Source: Nonomuraea angiospora | Lineage (GTDB): Bacteria > Actinomycetota > Actinomycetes > Streptosporangiales > Streptosporangiaceae | DNA length: 64,000 bases | Direction: 5' to 3' | NCBI RefSeq assembly: GCF_014873145.1 | Contig: NZ_JADBEK010000001.1 | Location: 11,470,001-11,534,000, forward strand | Shown here: positions 34,138-51,920 of the stretch, piece by piece | Layout: each line of letters begins with the position of its first letter | Numbering within the stretch: position 1 is the stretch's first letter | Notes under the pieces: model-generated | Told to the model about the DNA's origin: nothing | The model's input: only the letters and a program-made list of their open reading frames with translations | The model's database searches: none | Translations under genes and position numbers: made by a program

Positions 34138-34920
34138 GTGAACGTCGCCGATCTCAGCCCGGCACAGGCGCGGGAGCGCTTCCGCGCCGGCGAGCGCGTG
34201 CCCACGGCGGGGTGGTGCCGGGGGTGGACGCAGGCCAACCTGATCGCGGTGCCGCGGCGGCTGCGCTACGAGCTGCTGCTGTTCGCCCACCTCAACCCGC
34301 GGGCGTGCCCCGTGCTGGACGTGGGGGAGCCGGGCGCCTGGTCCACGCCGCTGTTCCCCGGCGACCTCCGTACCGACCTGCCCGGATACCGGCTCTACCG
34401 CGACGGCGAGCCGGTCGCGGACCTCGGCGACGTGGTCGAGCAGTGGCGGGACGACCTGGTGCCGTTCCTCATCGGGTGCAGCTTCACCTTCGAGCGGGCG
34501 CTGCTCGCGGCCGGGGTGCCGGTGCGGCACCTGGAGCTGGGGACGAACGTGCCGATGTACGTCACGGACGTGGCCTGCGAGACCGCCGGGAGCCTGTCGG
34601 GGCCGCTGGTCGTGTCGATGCGGCCGGTGCCGGACGAGCTGGTGAAGACGGCGATCGAGGTGAGCGGCCGGTATCCGCTGGTGCACGGGGCGCCGGTGCA
34701 CGTCGGCGACCCGGCGGGGATCGGGATCCGCGACCTGGGGCGGCCGGACTTCGGCGATCCGGTCGAGGTGCGGGAGGGGGAGGTGCCGCTGTTCTGGGCG
34801 TGCGGGGTGACGCCGCAGGCGGCGGTCATGGCCAGCGGCGTCGAGTACGCGATCGGCCACCTGCCGGGGCACATGGCGATCCTGGACGCCCGCGACGACG
34901 ACTACCGCGTGCCGTCCTGA
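34138..34920 (+). CDS. D-glutamate cyclase-like / DUF1445 hydro-lyase family protein
   Basis: The 260-residue protein has the conserved blocks of the YcsI/DUF1445 family: [61 protein letters not shown] and the C-terminal [15 protein letters not shown] with IGHLPGHM. Members are annotated as putative hydro-lyases, and mammalian relatives are D-glutamate cyclases. The GTG at 34138 follows CAGGGA; the leader is short. It is divergent from the symporter gene and has no close partner. Confidence 0.88.
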
Positions 34921-34974
34921 CCGCGTGGCGTCGTGACCGCGTGCCGTCCTGACCGCGTGCCGTTGTGACGGTGT
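34911..34974. repeat. 16-bp tandem repeat running through a stop codon
   Basis: Four consecutive 16-base units (GCCGTCCTGACCGCGT and variants with two to four changes) begin inside the last codons of the preceding gene and continue past its TGA. The unit length is not a multiple of three, so copy-number change would not alter the protein. The region to 35115 contains no other recognised feature than the upstream region of the SecY-like gene. Confidence 0.75.
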
Positions 34975-35115
34975 GCGGCCGGGCGGCGTCGCTGTCGGGG
35001 CGGCGTGCTGTCCTGATGGCGTGCTGGACTGATGCTCGTGTACGCGGATTTGCGTACGCGGGTGCCTCGTCTCGGCGGACGACGCCGGGCGCCGCCCAGG
35101 TCAGACTCCTTGACC

Positions 35116-36405
35116 ATGCTGACCGTCTTTACCAGGGCGTTCCGGGTGCCGGAGCTGCGTAAGAAGCTGCTGTTCACGCTGGGACTCATCGCGTTGTTCC
35201 GCCTCGGGCAGCTCATGCCCTCCCCGGGGGTGGACGTGGTGGCCGTGCGGGAGTGCGTGGGGTCGGCCAGGGGCGGCCTGTTCGACATGGTGCAGATGCT
35301 CAGCGGGGGCGCGATGCTGCAGCTGTCGGTGTTCGCGCTGGGCGTCATGCCGTACATCACGGCCAGCATCATCATGCAGCTCTTCGCCGTGCTGGTGCCC
35401 CGGCTGGAGGCCCTCAGGAAGGAAGGGCAGCGGGGCCAGGCGAAGATCACCCAGTACACGCGGTACCTGACCGTCGGGCTCGCCGTGCTGAACGCCGGGA
35501 CGATCGTCGCGCTCGCCCGCTCCGGGCAGCTGCTGCCCGGGTGCTCGAAGCCGCTGCTGCGTGACGAAGGGCTGCTGCCCGTGGCCGTGATCGTGCTGAC
35601 CATGGTGGCCGGGGCCTGCGTGGTGATGTGGCTCGGCGAGCTGGTCACGGACCGGGGCATCGGGAACGGCATGTCCATCCTGATGTTCACGCAGGTCGTG
35701 GCCGTCTTCCCGGGATACATGGCGAAGATCTTCGTGATGAGCCCGGTGAGCTTCGTGGTGATGACGGCGGCCGGGCTGTGCCTGGTGGCGGCCGTGGTGT
35801 TCGTGGAGCAGGCGCAGCGGCGGATCCCCGTGCAGTACGCGAAGCGGATGGTGGGTCGGCGGATGTACGGGGGCGGCAACACCTACATCCCGCTGAAGGT
35901 GAACCAGGCGGGGATCGTGCCGGTGATCTTCACCTCCTCGCTGCTGTACCTGCCGACGCTGGCGGCGCCGATGCTGGGGGACTCGGCCCGGACGTGGGTG
36001 GAGCTCAACCTGACCTCGGGGACGCATCCTCTCTACATGAGCGTGTACGTGCTGCTCATCGTCGCCTTCGCCTACTTCTACGTGTCGATCACCTTCAACC
36101 CCGTGGAGGTGGCGGACAACATGCGGCGCTACGGGGGATTCGTTCCCGGGATCCGGCCGGGCGGGCCCACGGCGCGCTACCTGGCGTACGTGCTGTCCCG
36201 GCTGACCGCGCCCGGGGCGCTCTACCTGGGGGTGCTGGCGCTGCTGCCGCTGGTGGCGTTCGCGATCCTCCGGGATCCGGGTACGCAGCAGAACTTCCCG
36301 TTCGGCGGGACGAGCGTGCTGATCATGGTGGGGGTCGGGCTGGACACCGTCAAGCAGATCGAGTCCCAGCTCCAGCAGCGCAACTACGAAGGGTTCCTGC
36401 GCTGA
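35116..36405 (+). CDS. SecY-family preprotein translocase channel protein, orphan paralogue
   Basis: The 429-residue protein is a ten-span SecY: FRLGQLMPSPGVDV, the plug region GLFDMVQMLSGGAMLQLSVFALGVMPYITASIIMQL, LGELVTDRGIGNGMSILMF, RRIPVQYAKRM, NTYIPLKVNQAGIVPVIFTSSLLYLP and FNPVEVADNMRRYGGFVPGIRPG. All main SecY blocks are present, so it should form a translocation pore with SecA/SecE. It is not next to ribosomal genes or adk/map as the housekeeping secY is, nor next to secA2 or glycosylated-substrate genes. It is therefore probably a second, specialised or duplicate SecY. No strong ribosome site precedes the ATG. The next convergent gene ends 1 base away. Confidence 0.88.
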   Translation: MLTVFTRAFRVPELRKKLLFTLGLIALFRLGQLMPSPGVDVVAVRECVGSARGGLFDMVQMLSGGAMLQLSVFALGVMPYITASIIMQLFAVLVPRLEALRKEGQRGQAKITQYTRYLTVGLAVLNAGTIVALARSGQLLPGCSKPLLRDEGLLPVAVIVLTMVAGACVVMWLGELVTDRGIGNGMSILMFTQVVAVFPGYMAKIFVMSPVSFVVMTAAGLCLVAAVVFVEQAQRRIPVQYAKRMVGRRMYGGGNTYIPLKVNQAGIVPVIFTSSLLYLPTLAAPMLGDSARTWVELNLTSGTHPLYMSVYVLLIVAFAYFYVSITFNPVEVADNMRRYGGFVPGIRPGGPTARYLAYVLSRLTAPGALYLGVLALLPLVAFAILRDPGTQQNFPFGGTSVLIMVGVGLDTVKQIESQLQQRNYEGFLR

Positions 36406-36406
36406 G

Positions 36407-37321
36407 TCACACGCTGAGCCCGGCTCGGATGGCGAAGACCACGAGCTGGGCCCGGTCCCGGGCGCGCAGCTTGAGCATGGCGCGGCTGACGTGGGTGCGT
36501 ACGGTGTCGGGGCTGATCACCAGCTCCCTGGCGATCTCCTCGTTCGACCGGCCCGTGGCCACCCACGCCACCAGCTCCCGTTCGCGGGGTGTGAGCGTCT
36601 CCAGCCCTTCGACCGGCTCGGTGCCGTGCCGCCCGAACATCCCGATGACCTTCTTGGTGATCGCCGGTGACAGCAGCGCCTCGCCGGCCGCCACCACGCG
36701 TACGGCGTTGACCAGCTCCTCAGGGGCGCTGTCCTTGAGCAGGAAGCCGCTGGCGCCGGCCTGGAGGGCGGCGAAGACGTACTCGTCGACGGCGAAGGTC
36801 GTCACCACGACGATCCGGGTGGCGCGCAGCCCGGGGTCGTCGGCGATGGCCCGCAGCACGGCCAGGCCGTCCATGCCGGGCATGCGGATGTCGAGCAGCA
36901 GGACGTCGGGGCGGGTGCGGCGGATCAGCGCGAGCGCGGCGGCGCCGTCGGCGGCCTCGCCCACGTACTCCATCCCGGGCGCGCGCTCCAGCAGGGCCCG
37001 CAGCCCCATCCGCACGACCGCCTGATCGTCGGCGACTGCCACCCTGACCACGCCGTCCGGGACGGTCGCGCCGCCGAGGGACGTGGTGCCATCCGGGACG
37101 GTTGCGCCGCCGAGGGAGGTAGCGCCGTCCGAGGTGGCCGCGCCGTCCAGGGGAGTCGGGCCGTACGGGGCAGTCACGCCGTCCGGGACGGTTGTGCCGC
37201 CCGGGGTGGCTGCGCCGTTCAAGGGGGTCACGCCGCCCGGGGAGGGCACCCGGTTCTGGGCCGAGGCGCCGTCCGGGGAGGGCACGCGGTCCGGGGTGGG
37301 GGCGCGGTCCGGGGTGGTCAC
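36407..37321 (-). CDS. NarL/LuxR-type response regulator with a repetitive N-terminal extension
   Basis: The receiver domain starts at about residue 91 (VVRVAVADDQAVVRMGLRALLE), with the phosphoacceptor Asp in DVLLLDIRMPG and Lys in FLLKDSAP. The C-terminal LuxR helix-turn-helix is LTPRERELVAWVATGRSNEEIARELVISPDTVRTHV. The preceding 90 residues are 15 hexapeptides such as TTVPDG, ATSLGG, VTAPYG, an extension not found in normal relatives. The GTG at 37321 overlaps the kinase stop (GTGA), which supports this start, although a GTG at the receiver itself is an alternative. It is phosphorylated by the kinase encoded upstream. Confidence 0.85.
   Translation of the reverse strand: MTTPDRAPTPDRVPSPDGASAQNRVPSPGGVTPLNGAATPGGTTVPDGVTAPYGPTPLDGAATSDGATSLGGATVPDGTTSLGGATVPDGVVRVAVADDQAVVRMGLRALLERAPGMEYVGEAADGAAALALIRRTRPDVLLLDIRMPGMDGLAVLRAIADDPGLRATRIVVVTTFAVDEYVFAALQAGASGFLLKDSAPEELVNAVRVVAAGEALLSPAITKKVIGMFGRHGTEPVEGLETLTPRERELVAWVATGRSNEEIARELVISPDTVRTHVSRAMLKLRARDRAQLVVFAIRAGLSV
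37052..37321. repeat. 18-bp tandem repeat, 15 degenerate units, in frame
   Basis: On the minus strand fifteen 18-base units (for example GCAACCGTCCCGGACGGC) encode hexapeptides ending mostly in PDG, LGG or PDR in front of the receiver domain. All units are in frame with each other and with the response regulator. The pattern is a coding minisatellite. Confidence 0.8.
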
Positions 37322-38406
37322 GCGGAGGTCCGGGGGAACCGGGCGGTCACCTGGAAACCGCCGCCCTCGCGCGGCCCGGCGGCGAGGTGGCCGCCCGCTT
37401 CGGTGACCCTGGCGCGCATCCCGGCCAGCCCGCGCCCCTCGCCCGAGCCCGAACCCGAACCCGAGCTCGTACGGCCCGCGCCCCGATCGGCCACCTCCAC
37501 CACGAACTCGCCCGGAGCGCCGCCCACTCGCACGAGCGCCCTGGTGGGCCCCGCGTGCCGCAGCACGTTGGTCAGCGACTCGCGCACCACCCCGTAGACG
37601 GCGGTCCGGAGATGGGCGGGCACGGTGAGATTCGCGGGCTCGACGTCCACCGGCAGGCCCGCCGCCCGCACGCCGTCGATCAGCCCGGCGAGGTCGGCCC
37701 CCGGCGGGTCGATGCCGTCGAGCGCCGCCCGCAGCTGGGCGAGCGCCGTCGTGCTGGTCTCCCTGATCGCCCGCAGCGAGGCGCGCGCCTGCTCGGGGTC
37801 GTCGTCGAGGGTGACGAGGGCGATCCCGGCCTGCATGGCGATGGCGGCCAGGCCGTGCCCGGCCGCGTCGTGCACCTCGCCGGCGATCCTGGCCCGCTCC
37901 GCCGCCAGCAGGTCGGGCCCGGCGCCGTCGGCAGAACGCTCCGCCGCCGGCAGGTCGGGCCCGGCGCCGTCGCCGGAACGCACCGTCGTGAGCCGGTGGG
38001 GCTGTGCGGCGGGGATGCCCCACGCCACCGGCTCGGCGGCGCCGGTCTCGGCGACAAGCGCCGGGGACTCAGCGCGTACGGGCTGGGCGAAAAGCGGCTC
38101 GGCAAGAAATGGCTCGGCGAGAAGCGGCTCGGTGAGAAGTGGTTCGGCGAGAAGTGGTTCGGCGAAAAGCGGTTCGGAGAGCACGGACTCGGCGGAGAAC
38201 GGCGGTGACTCGGCGTCCGCGGCGGCGGCAGCGGCCGCGGCGCGGGCCTGGGCGAGGCCGCTGAACGACCACGGGACGGCCAGCCAGCCCGCCCACGCCA
38301 GCATGATCACGACGGGGACGTCGCCGAACCGGGGCAGGCGTGACAGGGCCGCGAACGACCGGCGCAGGCGGCCGGCCCTGTGCGTCTGCTCCGTCACCAT
38401 CCCCAC
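37318..38406 (-). CDS. NarL-type sensor histidine kinase with repeat-rich linker
   Basis: The protein has up to 362 residues and a short membrane segment (VPVVIMLAWAGWLAVPWSF). A linker of repeated pentapeptides follows (AEPLL, TEPLL, AEPFL, AEPLF), then a duplicated DGAGPDL-AAERS segment. HisKA_3 reads ARIAGEVHDAAGHGLAAIAMQAGIAL (phosphoacceptor His in EVHD), and the ATPase domain has VVRESLTNVLRHAG and GRGLAGMRARVTEAGG. Normal relatives carry four or more membrane spans where the repeats are, so the sensor domain seems replaced or lost. The start is GTG 38406 or ATG 38400. Its stop overlaps the response regulator start. Confidence 0.85.
   Translation of the reverse strand: MGMVTEQTHRAGRLRRSFAALSRLPRFGDVPVVIMLAWAGWLAVPWSFSGLAQARAAAAAAAADAESPPFSAESVLSEPLFAEPLLAEPLLTEPLLAEPFLAEPLFAQPVRAESPALVAETGAAEPVAWGIPAAQPHRLTTVRSGDGAGPDLPAAERSADGAGPDLLAAERARIAGEVHDAAGHGLAAIAMQAGIALVTLDDDPEQARASLRAIRETSTTALAQLRAALDGIDPPGADLAGLIDGVRAAGLPVDVEPANLTVPAHLRTAVYGVVRESLTNVLRHAGPTRALVRVGGAPGEFVVEVADRGAGRTSSGSGSGSGEGRGLAGMRARVTEAGGHLAAGPREGGGFQVTARFPRTSA
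37895..37978. repeat. 42-bp tandem duplication inside the kinase gene
   Basis: Two adjacent 42-base copies, differing at few positions, encode DGAGPDLPAAERS and DGAGPDLLAAERA just before the phosphoacceptor helix. The duplication keeps frame (14 codons) and lengthens the linker into HisKA_3. Confidence 0.8.
38068..38190. repeat. 15-bp tandem repeat, about seven units, in the kinase gene
   Basis: On the minus strand units close to GAACCACTTCTCGCC and GAGCCGCTTCTCGCC repeat, encoding SEPLF, AEPLL, AEPLL, TEPLL, AEPFL, AEPLF, AQPVR. All are in frame and sit between the membrane segment and the catalytic part. Confidence 0.8.
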
Positions 38407-51615: not shown

Positions 51616-51773
51616 GTGATCATTCTGCGACAAACTCTCGTGCAGGTGCAAGAGCGAATGCACGTGCAGACAACCCGTGCAGGCGCTACGGTTGCCCTCA
51701 AATGGTCAATATGGGGGAAAGGGGATCTTGTCCGCGGCCCATGATCTTTCGGCCGTGAAGTGACAGACTGTAC

Positions 51774-51920
51774 GTGCATACCCCGCAACATGCGGTGGGC
51801 CGCCGATCGCAGCTCACCGTAAGTGCAGACTCCGCTACTCGTGGCGGTCCGCCGGAGGCGGCCCACCATGGGTGCATACTCCGCTACTTGCGGTGGACCG
51901 CCGAACGCGGCCCACCGCGT
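51774..51920. repeat. Three tandem 49-bp direct repeats upstream of the Scr1 gene
   Basis: Units start at 51774, 51823 and 51872, each opening with GTGCA(T/G)AC(T/C)CCGC and each ending in an imperfect inverted repeat (GCGGTGG...CCCACCGC type). They fill the space between the divergent ATPase and Scr1 genes. GTGCA also recurs several times at 51610-51680, including the palindrome TGCACGTGCA. This looks like an operator array. Confidence 0.8.

Follow-up and report, generated by a model that had tools for sequence, protein, structure and literature searches.

Tandem-repeat linkers in both partners of a DesK/NarL-type two-component system of Nonomuraea angiospora

How a sensor histidine kinase and its response regulator (RR) come to carry in-frame tandem repeats in the segments ahead of their conserved domains, and whether such repeats matter for signalling, is a question raised by a two-component system (TCS) of the actinomycete Nonomuraea angiospora. 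The system lies in a stretch of 64,000 nucleotides (contig NZ_JADBEK010000001.1, positions 11,470,001 to 11,534,000), referred to here as the window, in which a kinase gene and a NarL-type regulator gene, both on the minus strand, overlap via GTGA (37318-37321). The pair is probably an ordinary, vertically inherited DesK/NarL-type TCS whose two disordered linkers are hotspots for tandem repeats in which copying slips are tolerated, and the arrays themselves probably do little. The repeats change from species to species in unit size, sequence and copy number, whereas the ends of the kinase, the receiver and the gene order are kept.

An initial annotation of the window reported 15 hexapeptide units before the receiver, about seven AEPLL-type pentapeptides and a 42-bp duplication in the kinase, all in frame, and a GTGA overlap of the two genes, and each of these features can be read in the sequence. 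The RR array comprises exactly 15 x 18 nt (37052-37321), running from VTTPDR to ATVPDG up to the receiver codon at 37051. The kinase pentapeptides (38074-38178) read SEPLF-AEPLL-AEPLL-TEPLL-AEPFL-AEPLF-AQPVR, the seventh unit being degenerate, and the two 42-nt copies (37897-37980) read RSGDGAGPDLPAAE and RSADGAGPDLLAAE. The three arrays, with units of 15, 18 and 42 nt, all keep the frame. The 15 hexapeptide units are degenerate, with matches of 61-91% in Tandem Repeats Finder (TRF) across the rows of the operon, and codon shuffles matched the observed TRF coverage in 0/500 cases for each window linker (205 nt in the kinase and 270 nt in the RR). Differences between adjacent pentapeptide units number 10, 1 and 9 at codon positions 1, 2 and 3, and those between hexapeptide units 39, 30 and 24, with no enrichment at position 3. 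Units not divisible by three, the mark of phase-variable on/off switching, are absent from the window arrays and from the kinase-linker periods listed for 32 loci. The features of the operon are as follows.

37318..38406, minus strand: sensor histidine kinase gene, an open reading frame (ORF) of 362 codons from GTG 38406, with ATG at 38400 as an alternative start
38209..38325, minus strand: hydrophobic membrane segment and Ala-rich tail, GDVPVVIMLAWAGWLAVPWSFSGLAQARAAAAAAAADAE, from conservation in aligned homologues
38074..38178, minus strand: pentapeptide array, part 1 of the kinase linker, 7 units of 15 bp (TRF 38081-38193)
37978..38025, minus strand: island AWGIPAAQPHRLTTVR within the hypervariable kinase linker, with W[GAS][ILVM][PA] conserved
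37897..37980, minus strand: 42-bp tandem duplication (14 amino acids x 2), part 2 of the kinase linker (TRF 37895-37985, 91% matches)
37702..37899, minus strand: HisKA_3 dimerisation/phosphoacceptor domain with EVHDAAGHG (Pfam, residues 170-235)
37327..37602, minus strand: HATPase_c domain (Pfam, residues 269-360)
37435..37467, minus strand: SSGSGSGSGEG repeat immediately before GRGLAGM, read in the sequence
37318..37321, minus strand: GTGA overlap of kinase stop and RR start, read in the sequence
36407..37321, minus strand: frame of the NarL-type response regulator, 304 codons when read from the overlap GTG
37052..37321, minus strand: hexapeptide array, the N-terminal linker of the RR, 15 x 18 bp
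36407..37051, minus strand: receiver and LuxR-type helix-turn-helix (HTH); the GTG of codon 37051-37049 might serve as an internal start

The kinase belongs by its domains to the HisKA_3 type (HPK7, DesK/NarX/LiaS-like), with HisKA_3 at 66.8 bits against a Pfam cut-off of 24 and HATPase_c at 40 bits against 26.4, and the best solved relative of its core (residues 168-358) is DesK (PDB 3gig and 5ium, E 4.5e-13). The regulator frame, which opens at GTG 37321..37319, carries Response_reg (99.2 bits) and GerE (LuxR) HTH (66.7 bits) domains, both above the Pfam cut-off. Its best NCBIfam match is NarL, at 158.5 bits below the cut-off of 250, and no NCBIfam model reached its cut-off among the 25 listed of 105 matched, NarL, MadR and MctR among them. 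The Gly-Ser repeat (SSGSGSGSG) at 37435-37467 on the minus strand is an additional repeat site inside the catalytic domain of the kinase, and its place next to GRGLAGM is presumably that of the ATP lid.

The best 120 of 282 kinase homologues were examined, and 63 of these were aligned in the numbering of the kinase P0001; duplicate loci of two collections were removed, and L002-L008 were excluded as paralogues on reading of their loci. H177, D178, N278, G322 and G324 are invariant in the 63 homologues, so that the His-Asp pair is present throughout, and N278, G322 and G324 are taken here to represent the N and G boxes. A kinase match at E <= 1e-60 occurs in 35/54 genomes of the genus, that of N. 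angiospora included. In all 19 named loci examined, including that of Sinosporangium (L053), the regulator adjoins a convergent SecY gene, and a phosphotriesterase-like neighbour is found in 17 of them, L050 and L053 being without it in the sequence examined. With the gene order kept in this way, the loci represent one vertically inherited operon.

Among the 120 homologues, the usual kinase plan consists of a basic N-terminus, one conserved hydrophobic segment, a linker and the core, and the linker, taken from membrane motif to HD motif, ranges from 65 to 251 residues (the membrane motif is missing from the sequence examined in L033 and L050). The RR linker ranges from 0 to 94 residues across orthologues and amounts to only 0-1 residue in L034, L037, L051 and L056. 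Some orthologues have unrelated units or none, and, as unit number and length both vary, the repeats are not those of an ordinary conserved linker, which the initial annotation had named as the outcome that would count against it. Among the close relatives P0001-P0005, the 14-residue kinase unit is present in 1, 2 or 3 copies. P0003 and P0004, both listed as N. angiospora, have catalytic parts 99.5% identical and identical N-termini but linkers of 81 and 95 residues, the difference being one 14-residue unit, and a catalytic identity of 97.4% between P0001 and P0003 goes with linkers of 121 and 81 residues, respectively. Such unit-sized copy changes between close relatives are those of a coding minisatellite. 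They agree with the earlier proposal of local slippage under selection to keep signalling, given that unit numbers shift while the frame is kept and the catalytic and receiver parts stay intact. At the junction of the two genes, arrays also stand at the kinase C-terminus in L130 (21 bp x 5.3) and L136 (SAETV x 3), suggesting that either gene can take up repeats at the junction, and in L020 and L039 the kinase C-terminus runs into the usual regulator frame, the usual overlap start having thereby been lost.

The repeats had also been thought to stand where relatives have membrane sensor spans, and this does not hold. A simple Kyte-Doolittle scan found one hydrophobic span in 109 of the 120 homologues and none above threshold in the other 11, each followed by the linker, and a multi-span sensor region of the DesK type was not detected in any of the 120. 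Two spans each were found in the distant relatives L140 and L141 (one of those in L141 is the conserved segment), where the additional hydrophobic sequence lies N-terminal to the conserved segment and does not replace the repeats; a loss of sensor spans at the repeat site is accordingly rejected. The paralogues L002-L004 have 3-5 spans, and together with the class-level relatives L154-L156 they have three to six.

The single hydrophobic segment is itself strongly conserved, with 14 of the 19 positions 34-52 invariant in the 63 homologues and a near-invariant pattern of LxWxGWLAVPWS..GL.QA, and a query with the segment matched 36/200 genomes of the order, again including that of N. angiospora. 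The positive-inside rule places the basic N-side of a single span inside, and a single span would thus put the kinase outside the cell, so that the segment, judged by its residues, is more likely re-entrant or monotopic. C-terminal to it, W[GAS][ILVM][PA] occurs in 110/120 homologues, several of the remaining ten having near variants such as WCIPA, WRIPS or YGIPA, and W127 and P130 are almost invariant in the alignment.

To place the arrays within the operon, 32 distinct Nonomuraea loci were screened by TRF, with up to three rows listed per locus. At a score of at least 50, arrays are present in 17/32 kinase linkers and in 11 RR spacers; at a score of at least 60, they are present in 16/32 kinase linkers and in 7/19 in-frame RR linkers of at least 10 residues, where they cover 2234 nt in the kinases and 995 nt in the RRs; codon shuffles gave averages of 60 and 17 nt and at most 218 and 164 nt. 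Every listed kinase-linker period is a multiple of 3, and the sole exception among the listed RR-spacer periods is one of 10 bp in L022, where the spacer is outside the overlap frame. A comparison of regions in 17 long loci (L050 and L053 were left out) assigned to arrays 20.0% of the bases in kinase linkers and 34.3% in RR spacers, against 4.0% in the kinase core, 0.4% in the RR body, 0% in SecY, 0-1.1% in other labelled flanking genes and 1.7% in unlabelled sequence. Intergenic pieces between labelled neighbours, the window included, have 3.8% array bases.

The initial annotation regarded the keeping of frame in two partner genes as special, but the genome as a whole does not bear this out. 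In 20 stretches of 20 kb (400 kb), TRF at a score of at least 100 found 36 arrays, 15 of them in probable coding sequence by a crude ORF and GC3 (GC at codon position 3) test. The period is divisible by three in 15/15 of these against 8/21 of the others, a contrast that is somewhat inflated insofar as frame-breaking arrays may escape the ORF test. Frame-keeping therefore says nothing special about these partners, and frame preservation as a sign of special selection on the pair is rejected. The window holds 9 arrays of score at least 100, 4 of them within the operon; arrays with 16-bp and 49-bp units lie at 34904-35023 and 51770-51917, the former almost entirely in the gap that separates the second SecY gene from a neighbouring ORF. 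An origin of the arrays in errors of assembly or sequencing would be in keeping with the error-prone nature of GC-rich repeats and with the many relatives that are drafts of many contigs, but is highly improbable, given that the window lies within a single 13.09-Mb contig, that the units are degenerate and not exact copies, and that independent relatives carry different arrays at the same places.

A tolerated-repeat history of the operon may be pictured as follows. In DNA so rich in GC, minisatellites, of which the genome has many, would arise by slippage or unequal recombination, and purifying selection would clear those arrays that break the frame or strike folded domains. The surviving arrays would then build up between the membrane anchor and the kinase core and at the kinase/regulator junction, where they would extend the N-terminus of the regulator through the coupled GTGA start. 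The kinase would most likely be a membrane-tethered enzyme on a flexible tether, and with such a tether the length of the linker would be nearly free. Pro (14.2%), Ala and Gly abound in the kinase linkers, and from these sequences a floppy tether would be the simplest reading of the kinase linker. A freely evolving linker between the conserved membrane segment and W-G-I-P island and the kinase core would argue against a rigid coiled-coil relay.

Several observations weigh against tolerance as the full account. The disorder of the linkers is judged from composition only, and repeat differences between draft assemblies may include error, the collapse of single near-exact units being possible. 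Arrays are clearly tolerated in the linkers, but the linkers are 20-34% array against 3.8% in intergenic DNA at the same loci, so that tolerance alone may not explain the arrays; linkers and intergenic DNA differ in GC content as well. The W-G-I-P island persists within the hypervariable linker, so that part of the linker is under selection. Lastly, kinase and RR linker lengths correlate weakly, with a Spearman coefficient of 0.50 (n=33), or 0.43 within Nonomuraea (p=0.03, n=26).

The last of these points, along with the richness of the linkers in arrays and the few differences between neighbouring pentapeptide units at codon position 2, would favour adaptive tuning, in which selection acts on copy number in either array or in both together, so that the repeats adjust the length of the tether and the gain of signalling in the manner of a slow contingency device. 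This account is unlikely. In ten pairs picked from the tree, the two length changes have the same sign in 4, opposite signs in 3 and are zero in 3, and in the 7 strict sisters among them the counts are 3, 2 and 2. The kinase linker lengths sorted modulo 7 number 14, 13, 13, 21, 14, 21 and 24, with no heptad preference (p=0.27, kinship ignored), and so have no length register. Unit sizes and sequences vary between species, and in some systems the RR linker is down to 0-1 residue. That the two linkers are tuned jointly is rejected inasmuch as the raw correlation is not upheld by the picked pairs, though these are few. Of the suggestion in the initial annotation that the repeats tune linker length, what survives is the correlation of lengths; neither the picked pairs nor the heptad register bears it out.

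The RR array is quite probably translated from the overlap start; two RR isoforms are possible. It is rather unlikely that the array is a mere intergenic spacer with translation beginning at GTG 37051. For a start at the receiver speak the codon at the ancestral start position, which is GTG in 16/16 loci having Val there, and several listed database RR models of ~216 amino acids that begin near the receiver, but another Val site is likewise GTG in 22/22 loci. In 33/46 distinct loci the overlap start, RTGA, lies in the receiver frame with no stop in between, L026, in which an open in-frame linker is present, having been left out of the count because its receiver match began too late. It is kept in frame and open in 22/29 Nonomuraea loci with a spacer of at least 20 nt (P = 3e-6 against 1/3, kinship ignored), and in L016, L028, L031 and L032 it is the only in-frame ATG, GTG or TTG upstream of the receiver. 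However, the spacers of L012, L014, L019, L022, L030 and L033 are outside the overlap frame, and a start other than the overlap must work in such loci; in the window, no clear Shine-Dalgarno sequence is seen by eye at the overlap start, and the hexapeptide units have no enrichment of differences at codon position 3.

Composition points the same way as the open frames, with a reservation. Across 19 loci, Arg and Lys make up 4.5% in the overlap frame against 22.5% and 32.1% in the other frames, much as in the translated kinase linker (6.9% against 24.7% and 25.9%), and the window RR array has 3.3% against 17.8% and 30.0%, with a GC3 of 0.922 against 0.722 and 0.733 at codon positions 1 and 2. 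In L022, with its spacer outside the overlap frame and a first-listed period of 10 bp, the receiver frame has 27.2% Arg and Lys. The proportion is still low in L012 and L014 (11.0% and 16.2%), where the receiver frame is not tied to the overlap, and is 3.7% in L020; composition alone therefore does not prove the overlap start.

The arrays might also function as multivalent peptides, such as ones on which a partner protein docks. By eye, the hexapeptides of the window, L021, L024 and L025 have a loose (A/V/P)-(T/A)-x-x-(D/E)-G pattern in common, and the AEPLL-type units keep E and P, but other orthologues have unrelated units or none, which makes such a role very unlikely. A possible, though tentative, account is that of a TCS indifferent to linker length, in which the membrane segment and the W-G-I-P motif form an input module whose signal gets to the core by some route other than a rigid helix, such as clustering in the membrane or docking of the motif onto the core. 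Both parts of this module are outside the Pfam and NCBIfam models searched. If signalling does proceed without a rigid helix, both linkers would be free for rebuilding by tandem repeats.

Other pairs in the genome were sampled through 40 paralogous kinases, mostly the best scoring, of 97 other kinase-like places. An array of score at least 80 in an open frame is present in 3/40, and an array before the receiver in 2/35 of those for which a receiver was matched on the kinase strand. A second kinase/NarL-regulator pair, L108 (G000:C1:7535000-7539600), has arrays in both partners, and in 15 family members sampled (L157-L171, that of N. angiospora among them) the receiver lies 8 to 212 nt from the kinase stop, with an array before it in 6/15 (periods 6 to 36). 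The N-terminus of the L108 regulator is hypervariable among relatives, with a PQPQPQ run in L167. As this pair behaves alike, the phenomenon is not unique, and the operon studied here is a strong case of it. The locus L095 (G000:C1:12242300-12246900) has an open kinase frame, 622 codons long, in which a unit of 15 bp is repeated ~15.5 times near the N-terminal end. Next to the operon, a full-length SecY gene is present at 35032-36405 on the plus strand (TIGR00967, 398.9 bits), convergent to it, and the genome has two SecY genes; the kinase and this second SecY may possibly be linked.

Models of membrane histidine kinases mostly assume that the signal passes as a helix movement through a linker in which both length and register count. 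The operon family amounts to a natural mutational scan, with many linker indels between conserved ends, a conserved gene order and a system that is apparently kept, and it lends itself to the question of whether a floppy tether is enough for a sensor kinase to function. It further illustrates cleanly how minisatellites can create new stretches of protein, probably disordered ones, in the chromosome of a bacterium. Searches of the open-licence PMC literature found no description of such a repeat-linker TCS.

Among known systems, the kinase resembles DesK of Bacillus subtilis in being a membrane-anchored kinase of the HisKA_3 type. In DesK, approaching transmembrane segments rotate the cytoplasmic domain and expose the catalytic His, and the cytoplasmic part is drawn with a coiled coil (PMC7465017), whereas here one hydrophobic segment is followed by 65-251 hypervariable linker residues before the core. 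The combination of receiver and HTH is common to regulators of the NarL/LuxR type, and the regulator here differs in its 90-residue hexapeptide extension before the receiver. In engineered photoreceptor histidine kinases (PATCHY) the linker between sensor and core likewise varies in length; there, light-repressed variants favour one coiled-coil register and inverted ones span several (PMC11164954), while the natural lengths here have no register. The repeats resemble in their periods those of archaeal Borg elements, in which in-ORF repeat units are all divisible by three against only 14-38% of intergenic ones, and the repeats build disordered regions, change fast and are nearly perfect (PMC9879509). 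Divisibility by three within ORFs is shared, at 15/15 here against 8/21 outside probable coding sequence, as are the fast change and the building of probably disordered segments, but near-perfect nucleotide repeats are not seen in the operon, with its 15 degenerate hexapeptide units and TRF matches of 61-91%. Unlike those of Borgs, the repeats described here are degenerate, lie in a bacterial chromosome and occupy both partners of one signalling pair.

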